From Cristatella mucedo (lineage: Eukaryota; Bryozoa; Phylactolaemata; Cristatellidae), in assembly GCA_009760855.2 (NCBI GenBank), contig WPIO01000220.1, forward strand, positions 62,001 to 126,000: a DNA stretch of 64,000 nt, written 5' to 3'. Within the stretch, counting starts at the first letter, position 1. Every line of letters starts with the position of its first letter. The notes below the pieces were generated by a model. The model saw only the letters and a list, made by a program, of their open reading frames with translations, searched no databases and had not been told where the DNA came from. A program made the position numbers and the translations under genes. This document shows, in pieces, positions 54,201-57,200 of this stretch.

Positions 54201-57200
54201 ATTATTGCTGCCTCTGTCTGACCTTCCAGGTGTGCAGTGACTCATGTTTGACCTAAGTGCCTGTTGAGTGGGTATGATAATTAGCTGCAAAAACGAAAGG
54301 ATTGCAGGTAACCCCTAATTTGGCCGGTCCAAAAAGTTAGTCATTGTATATTGTGATAATGTATTTTCTCTGGTATAGGCCTTTACTTATCGTCTTTTTA
54401 AGGAATTGACCATGAGCTTGTGCTGCTGTTGCAGTCAGATAAGTGTGACATCTGGGTCTATGTAACAGAGATATGCAATATGCATATGCAATAGCAGGGT
54501 CTTGGTCGCTGCCGTGTGACTTGTATCACTGATGCATGGTGTTAAGGCGGATGCTGGTATCATTGATACTTGGCGTTTCATTTGAGCTCCACCTTACATG
54601 GTGCAATGAGGCTTTGTTGAGATATGCATTTATTTTCAACCGGACAAGGTCACTAAAAACGTGGCTCAGACATGGCTCAGCCTGCTTGCTGGTTTTTGCT
54701 TTACATTTGAGTTTGGTTTAGAGCATATAATGCTAATGCAGTAGCCTAGTCAGTCGTTGATCTCATTGAGCATCACAAGAATGAAGTGGATAGGAGGCTC
54801 AGAGCTCAGGCTGGTTGTATCACATTTCAAAGACTGACCTTTCTCTATTTGACACGAGTTTTGGAGCATCGTGCCTCCAGATGTCTGCTGATATATTTTT
54901 TTAATAATAATAGTGCTCGGTGCCCAAGCAGCTTAGACAGGTGGTTATTAACCGTGGTGGTGCAACTTCACTTAAGATTCACAGTTTAAACTTGTTAAAA
55001 CTTCTACTGAAACTTTGTTCTCCGGTTACTTAGGCTTATTTTATGTATCATTTCATGATGCTCAGTGTAAAGCCTGGAACTGTCTCTAGAGTGACGTCAC
55101 GACATCACTTTACGGGACCTCTTCCTAATAGCATTTGCTGGGTCCTTGTGTATTATCTTTTGTGTGCTTGCATGCTGACACTGTGTATGTTACCACTAAC
55201 CTATTGATATGCATCCTTTACCGCATATTTAAAGTGCCTAGAAAGAGAGTAAGAGCTCTGAGGGCACTACGAAGTGTTGTTATTAAATTTTATAGTTTTT
55301 TTCAGTAGCAGTGTTCTTACCGAATTGGGAACTTGTAGACTCTCGTAGCCAGTGTTGGTAGCCTCACCTATACTTTGTGATGCTGCTGCTCTGTTTATGG
55401 CTTGGCTTGCTTTGCAGAGAAGCTGCTCACTGGGCAGTCGTTTTACCTGGTGCGCAACGAGCCGCAGTGTGAGGCCTGCTACACGGCATCCTTGGAGAAA
55501 TGCAGTGCCTGCCAGCAGCCTATCACCGACCGCATCCTTCGAGCCACGGGCAAGGCCTATCATGCCCGCTGCTTTACGTGTGTCGTCTGCCATCGCAGCC
55601 TCGACGGTGTCCCCTTCACCGTTGACTCGGACAATCAGGTGCATTGTGTCGAGGACTTCCACAAGTACGTCTTCACTTCGGCAGCTGGCCTTGCCTGCCT
55701 TTAATCGATGGTGTCTACTGACCCAATCGTGACTGATGTCTTATCTACAGTGTAATGTCACGCCTGTGTGTCTTGTGGGTTAATCAAAAGCATTTTGGTT
55801 GACTTTTAGGAAATATGCCCCAAGATGCAGTGTTTGCCAGCAGCCGATCATGCCGGAGGGAAACCAGGAAGAGACTGTTCGTATCGTTGCCCTGGATCGC
55901 AATTTCCACATCAGCTGCTATAAATGCGAGGTCAGTCTTCTGGGCATGTTCCTATGTTCAACTGTCTTAAAGAATATTGAATGGTGTGTTGTGTATGCCC
56001 TAGACTGGATGTTAGTCATGATTATCAAACACAAGCAACAAACGTTATCAAACACAAGCAACAAATGTATACAGAAACACTTATGTGTATAGCTGTTAAG
56101 TATTTTGTTGTTGTTGAAAACACTGTTTTGTCGGCTTCTTTGTCTTTTTAATTGAAACCCGAAATGTGTTCCTCTGAACCTTCAGAATGAGTGTTCATAC
56201 ACGGAATGCTCAAAAAGGGGAACCCGATTCTCACAACTATAGTTACGTACGTGTGTTCGGCACCTTTGACCTGTGCCTCCGAGTGTACCTCAGCTAGGTA
56301 CACTCTCCACTGTTAACAGCTGTTGATTTACATGAGAAATTCAAGTCTGCCCAAGGGCAGTATGTTGCTGTGCTTCCTTTGTTCCCATGCATGGTGGCCG
56401 ATGAAGATTCTCGTTTATGTGTCTTAGGCAGGTCTTATTGGGCACAGATTTATTAGGTAAGGTGGTTGCTTTTTGCGATCTTGGTCTCGAGGTCATGGTT
56501 CGAATCCTGTGGTGGGCGATCCTTAAGCGCCACTGCAAGAGATGGTGATAGCCCTAAAGGTTCTTCTGATGTTATGCAAAAGAAGCTGTTAAATCAGCTG
56601 GTATTTGTTTTTACCTGATTGAGGATCACTGCTGAATCTACTTTAATCAGCTTAAAATGCCATCACATTATGTTGCACCGAGTGGTAGTAGCCACAAAGT
56701 GAGGTTATACTAAAGCATTGGCTATTTCCTATTGCTGTTCGAGCTTGCTGACCCAGTGTCTTTATAAGGCAGTGGTTCTCAACTTTCCTATTGCCGCGAC
56801 CCTTTAATACAGGTCATCATGTTGTGGTGACCCCCAACCATAAAATTATTGTGTGCAAAATGTGGAAATGCCTATTTCTGATTGTCTTAGGCGACCCCTG
56901 TGAAAGGGTCGTTCGAATCCCAAAGGGCTCGAGACCCACAGGTTGAGAACCGCTGTTATAGGGCAAGTCAGGCTACGTTTCAGTAGAGACTTCAGATGCT
57001 TACTACTGGTTCGTGGAAATTGATGAAGGCAGCCAATTAGACAATCTTGTTGCCATGATCAGGCCAGTTAATGCACTACAAACTCTACTGCCCAGTCTTA
57101 TAATGATAAAAAACTTAGCTGAGTCAACGACCTCTTTGTATAGCAGCACAAGAGCCTAAACGGCAATTTATGATAATAATGTTGGCTGAGTCAACAACAT

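Follow-up and report, generated by a model that had tools for sequence, protein, structure and literature searches.

A SPIN-type element within the final intron of a LIM-domain gene

The window, by which we mean the whole stretch of 64,000 nucleotides that was analysed (contig C134, positions 62001-126000), carries the 3' portion of a gene on the plus strand, which we modelled as five 3' exons joined across GT-AG junctions (Table 1). The product contains three LIM domains (PF00412, E 1.4e-33) and has its best relatives among LPP/TRIP6/zyxin-type proteins; the sturgeon protein at the head of the LIM search looks like a normal fish LPP in which part of the LIM region is duplicated, and does not come from the host. 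Inside the last intron lies a 186-bp element bounded by short terminal inverted repeats of the CAG...CTG type seen in hAT transposons, 13 of their 14 positions being complementary. When positions 56001-58000 were searched for inverted pairs of 14 bp (at most one mismatch, 100-350 bp between the arms), this element was the sole pair found, and a sensitive BLAST with the element as query gave no second copy in the window. A preliminary description had placed a SPIN-like hAT MITE in an animal gene intron here, with matching ends and arms and flanking 8-mers agreeing at 7 of 8 positions; its coordinates were exact, the 7/8 agreement was recovered, and the resemblance to SPIN held when measured as follows.

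Table 1. Positions of genes, repeats and element parts within the window
Feature	Position	Strand	Remarks
LPP/zyxin-like gene, proline-rich exon	48141..49035	+	frame carries on through GT-AG junction
LIM domain 1 exon, first part	54013..54114	+	
LIM domain 1 (second part) and LIM domain 2 exon	55418..55664	+	
LIM domain 3 exon, first part	55810..55930	+	
Last intron of LIM gene	55931..57993	+	contains SPIN element and repeated SINE-like pieces
LIM domain 3, second part, C terminus, stop codon	57994..58155	+	
SPIN_NA-type non-autonomous hAT element (MITE)	56770..56955	+	186 bp
Target site duplication, left copy	56762..56769	.	TTATAAGG
Target site duplication, right copy	56956..56963	.	TTATAGGG
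Left terminal inverted repeat	56770..56783	+	CAGTGGTTCTCAAC; 13/14 complementary to right end
Right terminal inverted repeat	56942..56955	-	read as CAGCGGTTCTCAAC
Left subterminal inverted repeat	56797..56815	+	79% complementary over 19 nt
Right subterminal inverted repeat	56893..56911	-	pairs with 56797-56815
LINE copies	2659-3488, 7779-9581, 20576-20958, 33568-35189, 38538-39270, 42875-43649, 50249-50897, 53158-53679, 61041-61340		
SINE-like pieces	6860-7034, 32352-32531, 56497-56581, 57103-57231, 59085-59263, 63653-63737		

The SPIN_NA consensus used as reference throughout is not a Repbase/Dfam record and is here taken to represent the tetrapod family; it was written down after the window had been read and before the host genome was searched. 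Against it, the window copy is identical at 77 of 81 positions in the left arm and 75 of 81 in the right, and in place of 149 nt of the SPIN middle it has 24 nt. The local alignment score is 73; shuffling the element 500 times gave 10.7 ± 1.8 (maximum 22), and the best non-overlapping place in the window reaches 21. Two database proteins, P0241 (source jgi) and P0242 (source lgn), derive from translated SPIN-like DNA and share 64% and 51% identity with the translation of the window element. No match to the element was found among phages and plasmids, and exact SPIN-arm patterns occurred neither in viral_contigs nor in genome_contigs (0 in each). A search with SPIN strings in the portions of the literature available to it returned only a 16-mer, in two mouse papers.

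A short family of about 187 bp in the host genome

The genome (572,011,866 bases in 688 contigs) was searched with the window element, and the best 40 of 2221 first-look candidates were scored. The element is one of many: at least 41 places, spread over 30 contigs, comprise the window copy itself, 39 places at 88-91% identity to it, and one at 79%. All 41 were extracted, and target site duplications, consensus and divergence were derived from 30 oriented copies, window copy included. The flanking 8-mers of these 30 agree at 8/8 in 6 copies, 7/8 in 13, 6/8 in 4 and 5/8 in 2, with 5 copies at 3/8 or lower; thus 23 copies reach at least 6/8 and 19 at least 7/8, and 7 stay at 5/8 or below. In the 3000 shifted controls, 11 attained 6/8, and 7/8 never occurred. 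The duplicated sites are similar to nTCTAGAG, with position 4 being T in 43/46 and position 5 being A in 42/46. The sites themselves are unrelated, no mutual alignment longer than 100 bases being found at E 1e-5 among the 60 flanking pieces of 240 bp.

The consensus of the short family is 187 bp long and matches the reference SPIN_NA at 79 of 80 left-arm and all 80 right-arm positions (159/160). The arms of the window copy deviate from the reference SPIN at 10 positions; in each case most of the 40 other copies carry the SPIN base, and the lone arm difference between consensus and reference is a T to C at column 59 (27 C, 13 T). The reference had therefore predicted genome sequence that had not been seen when it was written down, which validates the reference. 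The likeness ends with the arms: the 27-bp core of the short form resembles the SPIN middle of the reference no more than shuffled cores do and, unlike the arms, is unrelated to it. Copies are on average 94.3% identical to their own consensus, a drift of 5.7% (changed positions: non-CpG 4.8%, CpG 12.1%); here as for the long form below, only the best-scoring copies were scored or read, so that the divergence figures are minimum values, biased low.

A longer form retaining the SPIN interior

A second search used as probe 173 nt of the reference SPIN, nearly all of it interior, which the window lacks. The best 40 of 118 candidate places were scored and are 83-94% identical to the probe; 26 of the 40 were read, and 16 of these have both SPIN ends (at most 7 mismatches in 24). 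A consensus was built from 15 copies of 290-345 bp, leaving out the 10 without both ends and one of 498 bp. It measures 321 bp and is identical to the reference SPIN at 295 of 308 positions. The SPIN interior is thus present in a genome family of about 320 bp, and the 186-bp window copy is without it. Long copies average 90.7% identity to their own consensus (9.3% drift), and their flanking 8-mers agree at 6/8 or better in 10 of the 16 both-ended copies and at 5/8 or less in the other 6. Long and short forms of the host share a C at column 59 and a stretch, GGAAATGCGTG, at the junction beside the right arm, both unlike the tetrapod SPIN_NA reference. Like tetrapod SPIN (SPACE INVADERS) and SPIN_NA, the host elements have 8-bp duplications centred on TA and derivatives formed by internal deletion.

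One might suppose that the copies belong to a different hAT family of the host lineage, sharing with SPIN by descent only the common hAT-type ends (CAGNGGTTCTCAA...). Similar short ends are found in other hAT families, OC1 (OposCharlie1) among them, and the genome does hold other hATs, namely a young family and one with a CAGGGGTGTCCAA end. However, the match to the reference SPIN spans the whole 80-bp arms and the interior, and the OC1 sequence used, of the same kind as the SPIN reference, scores only 18 and, on the other strand, 28 against the window element, where SPIN scores 73. We consider a separate hAT family highly improbable and regard the elements as SPIN.

Of the 10 copies that do not show both ends, four (L089-L092) were read over 3.5 kb. 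All match the reference SPIN from position 1 to 225-229 and resume at position 227; the interruptions, of 114 (L090), 167 (L091), 328 (L089) and 2981 (L092) bases, all lie at a single junction of the reference SPIN_NA, to within 3 bases. L092, with both SPIN ends, measures 3288 bp and is flanked by GCTTAATC and GCTTAAAC. On its minus strand, coding-like fragments interrupted by stops are spread over several frames; by eye and by their motifs, we take some of them to be of the Buster/SPIN transposase type. Because Pfam gave no significant match to two of these fragments and PDB none to one, the transposase reading is one that we infer, and the interior of L092 is decayed and probably transposase-derived. 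An intact SPIN transposase was not found when the genome was scanned with hAT profiles (PF05699, 138 matches; PF14291, 46 matches), and none of the 18 hAT loci read from these scans has SPIN ends. Two hAT families met in this way, represented by L042-L051 and by L058/L059, were set aside as sources of SPIN transposase, being without such ends.

The host is an invertebrate

The COX1 gene on the mitochondrial contig (C688) is a frame of 517 codons with 15 TGA, 12 ATA, 11 AGA/AGG and 2 AAA codons. Judged by eye, the AGR codons stand mostly at Ser/Ala positions of animal COX1, ATA mostly at Met positions and AAA at Lys positions. This codon use fits best the invertebrate mitochondrial code 5. The vertebrate, echinoderm/flatworm, cnidarian/sponge and tunicate codes fit less well, the case against echinoderms and flatworms resting on the ATA codons and the two AAA codons. 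The host is an invertebrate, and the impression of a non-vertebrate lineage that the preliminary description had formed was correct, the 11 in-frame AGR codons and the LIM gene pointing the same way.

The LIM region is only 59-66% identical to those of 28 animal representatives, chosen among 120 listed proteins, with 63.8% to Halyomorpha, 59.9% to Haliotis and 63.3% to Crassostrea. As benchmarks, identity to Crassostrea is 80-86% among molluscs, identity to Anopheles is 82-88% among insects, and lamprey and sturgeon have 79% in common. Judged by this one divergent gene, the host looks like neither an insect nor a mollusc, although a gene from a fast-evolving member of either group, or a paralogue, is still conceivable. 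In a tree of LIM regions the window gene fell beside echinoderms, its branch long and the support 0.08, and because of this low value its position was not used. The observed/expected CpG ratio amounts to 0.63 for the window and 0.84 for the flanks of the copies.

Contamination of the assembly with vertebrate DNA, which would make the SPIN copies foreign to the invertebrate genome, deserves mention, since SPIN is common in tetrapods. Its presence in squamates is mentioned in the literature (PMC11008031; PMC5331948, there as the title of a reference). Against contamination stand the intronic position of the element in a LIM gene that is not of vertebrate type, the dispersal of at least 41 copies over 30 contigs with unrelated flanks in the 30 compared, and the column 59 C and right junction that both host families possess and the tetrapod SPIN reference does not. 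We therefore give contamination hardly any credence and treat the copies as residents of the invertebrate genome.

Several observations concern the mitochondrial DNA itself. On C688 (L060) the genes appear, by eye, in the one-strand order cox3, atp6, cox1, nad3, and the GC content is 44% over a stretch of 4.3 kb, which seems high for invertebrate mtDNA. Further COX1-like stretches occur on other contigs (G000:C166:4375626-4376390, C83:2826-3735, C549:2641741-2642010 and C299:634220-634540) and are probably nuclear copies of mitochondrial DNA.

Proposed spread within the genome and horizontal transfer

SPIN is a standard example of DNA passing from one animal group to another, distant one. The reading that we prefer, at a probability of about 0.94, is that the window element is a miniature SPIN copy, and that SPIN entered an ancestor of the host invertebrate by horizontal transfer and then spread as deletion families. 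The entry may have been direct or through intermediates. After it, two or more families of deletion derivatives (about 187 and 320 bp) would have arisen, alongside the decayed 3.3-kb copy that keeps an interior. In the short form both SPIN ends, of about 80 bp each, would have remained recognisable to a hAT transposase in spite of the lost middle. SPIN transposase supplied in trans would excise such copies and insert them at 8-bp sites like nTCTAGAG, duplicating the site, and one of these insertions would have struck the last intron of the LIM-domain, adhesion-type gene. Cut-and-paste movement by a hAT transposase in trans is suggested because the derivatives keep their ends, mostly have 8-bp duplications and sit at unrelated sites. 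The transposase in trans, the cut-and-paste movement and the transfer, with its direction and date, are matters that we infer and do not observe directly.

The argument for transfer lies in the comparison of two distances. Within the genome, copies have drifted by 5.7% (short) and 9.3% (long) from their consensus sequences, whereas the consensus of the arms differs from the tetrapod SPIN reference at only one position in 160, and the long consensus at 13 in 308 over its whole length. Near-identity to tetrapod SPIN, in sequence that drifts in this manner, implies horizontal transfer, which on these comparisons appears to be the only realistic source of SPIN here. An ancient vertical inheritance from an animal ancestor, with subsequent conservation, would accommodate the reports of SPIN-like DNA from vertebrates, an insect and a snail. 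Yet the element is non-coding and drifting, and neutral sequence would not stay so alike for more than 500 million years; vertical descent is thus very unlikely, and horizontal entry of SPIN remains our reading. The similarity does exceed what vertical inheritance would give, as had been claimed from the window copy, and the proposed addition of an invertebrate host to the SPIN transfer network stands, with the difference that the network already includes published invertebrates.

Pace 2008 and Gilbert 2010 are the original SPIN papers, and Lymnaea is reportedly another SPIN host. According to one source, which cites Gilbert 2010, SPIN, OC1, hAT1 and ET are common to Rhodnius and vertebrates, OC1 has been horizontally transferred, and Rhodnius produces piRNAs directed at SPIN (PMC11614815). 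A hAT of Biomphalaria glabrata with about 1,000 copies is described in another as having significant identity to SPIN (PMC5440852). Rhodnius prolixus, with SPIN_NA_12_RP and SPIN_NA_13_RP, and Biomphalaria are thus, by description, invertebrate carriers like our host; the host LIM gene is far from those of insects and molluscs. SPIN in invertebrates has already been published (in Rhodnius, and SPIN-like in the snail), and what is new is an additional host. Reports from other invertebrate phyla were not seen in the accessible portion of the open-licence literature, and there is a fair chance that the host represents a new phylum for SPIN.

A broader reading, which we hold slightly more probable than its opposite, is that SPIN resides here in a so far unreported phylum (neither mollusc, insect nor vertebrate), where it multiplied from a full-length element into two or more forms that differ in age, and that the lineage may have been a reservoir or source. 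The last suggestion follows from the two forms and the 3.3-kb remains of a resident full-length element; the odds of a new phylum are lowered because a single LIM gene cannot strictly separate the host from a fast-evolving insect or mollusc, and might be a paralogue. With copy families of greater and lesser age and apparent full-length remains, this further invertebrate host offers a datable record. The ecology of the host (parasite, prey, marine or freshwater) and the ages of its copies, set against those in vertebrates, Rhodnius and snails, would bear on who gave SPIN to whom.

Other repeats in the window and the genome

The young hAT family comprises L042-L051 and about 50 more places (e.g. 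G000:C62:104187-104423). Fifty-five places share one PF05699 score, several have frames of 635-642 aa, and over 2.0-2.2 kb the nine further copies sampled agree with L047 at 99.2-99.9%. The family looks recently or currently active, to judge from these identities; SPIN ends were absent from all ten loci, L042-L051. Another hAT (L058, 885-3534; L059, 1174-3829) has a weak DUF4371 match, the end CAGGGGTGTCCAACACGTGG, and frames of 563 and 482 aa, its two copies being 94.6% identical over 2665 columns.

Non-LTR LINEs of at least two families, L2/CR1-like by eye, are scattered through the window. Their copies are roughly 80-96% alike, RVT_1 was recognised in two ORFs, and some tails read GCGCCTAGAAAGAG...CTCTGAGGGCGC followed by ATT repeats. 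The best relatives of the LINE protein, from coral, fish and other contigs, are about 44-51% identical to it and give no placement of the host; patterns drawn from this protein gave 113 matches in genome_contigs and 7 in viral_contigs, none of them confirmed. The SINE-like pieces, for which a pattern search of viral_contigs returned 0 matches, are tRNA-like by eye, with no tRNA called by ARAGORN, and two of them border the SPIN copy, one on either side, within the same intron of the LIM gene.
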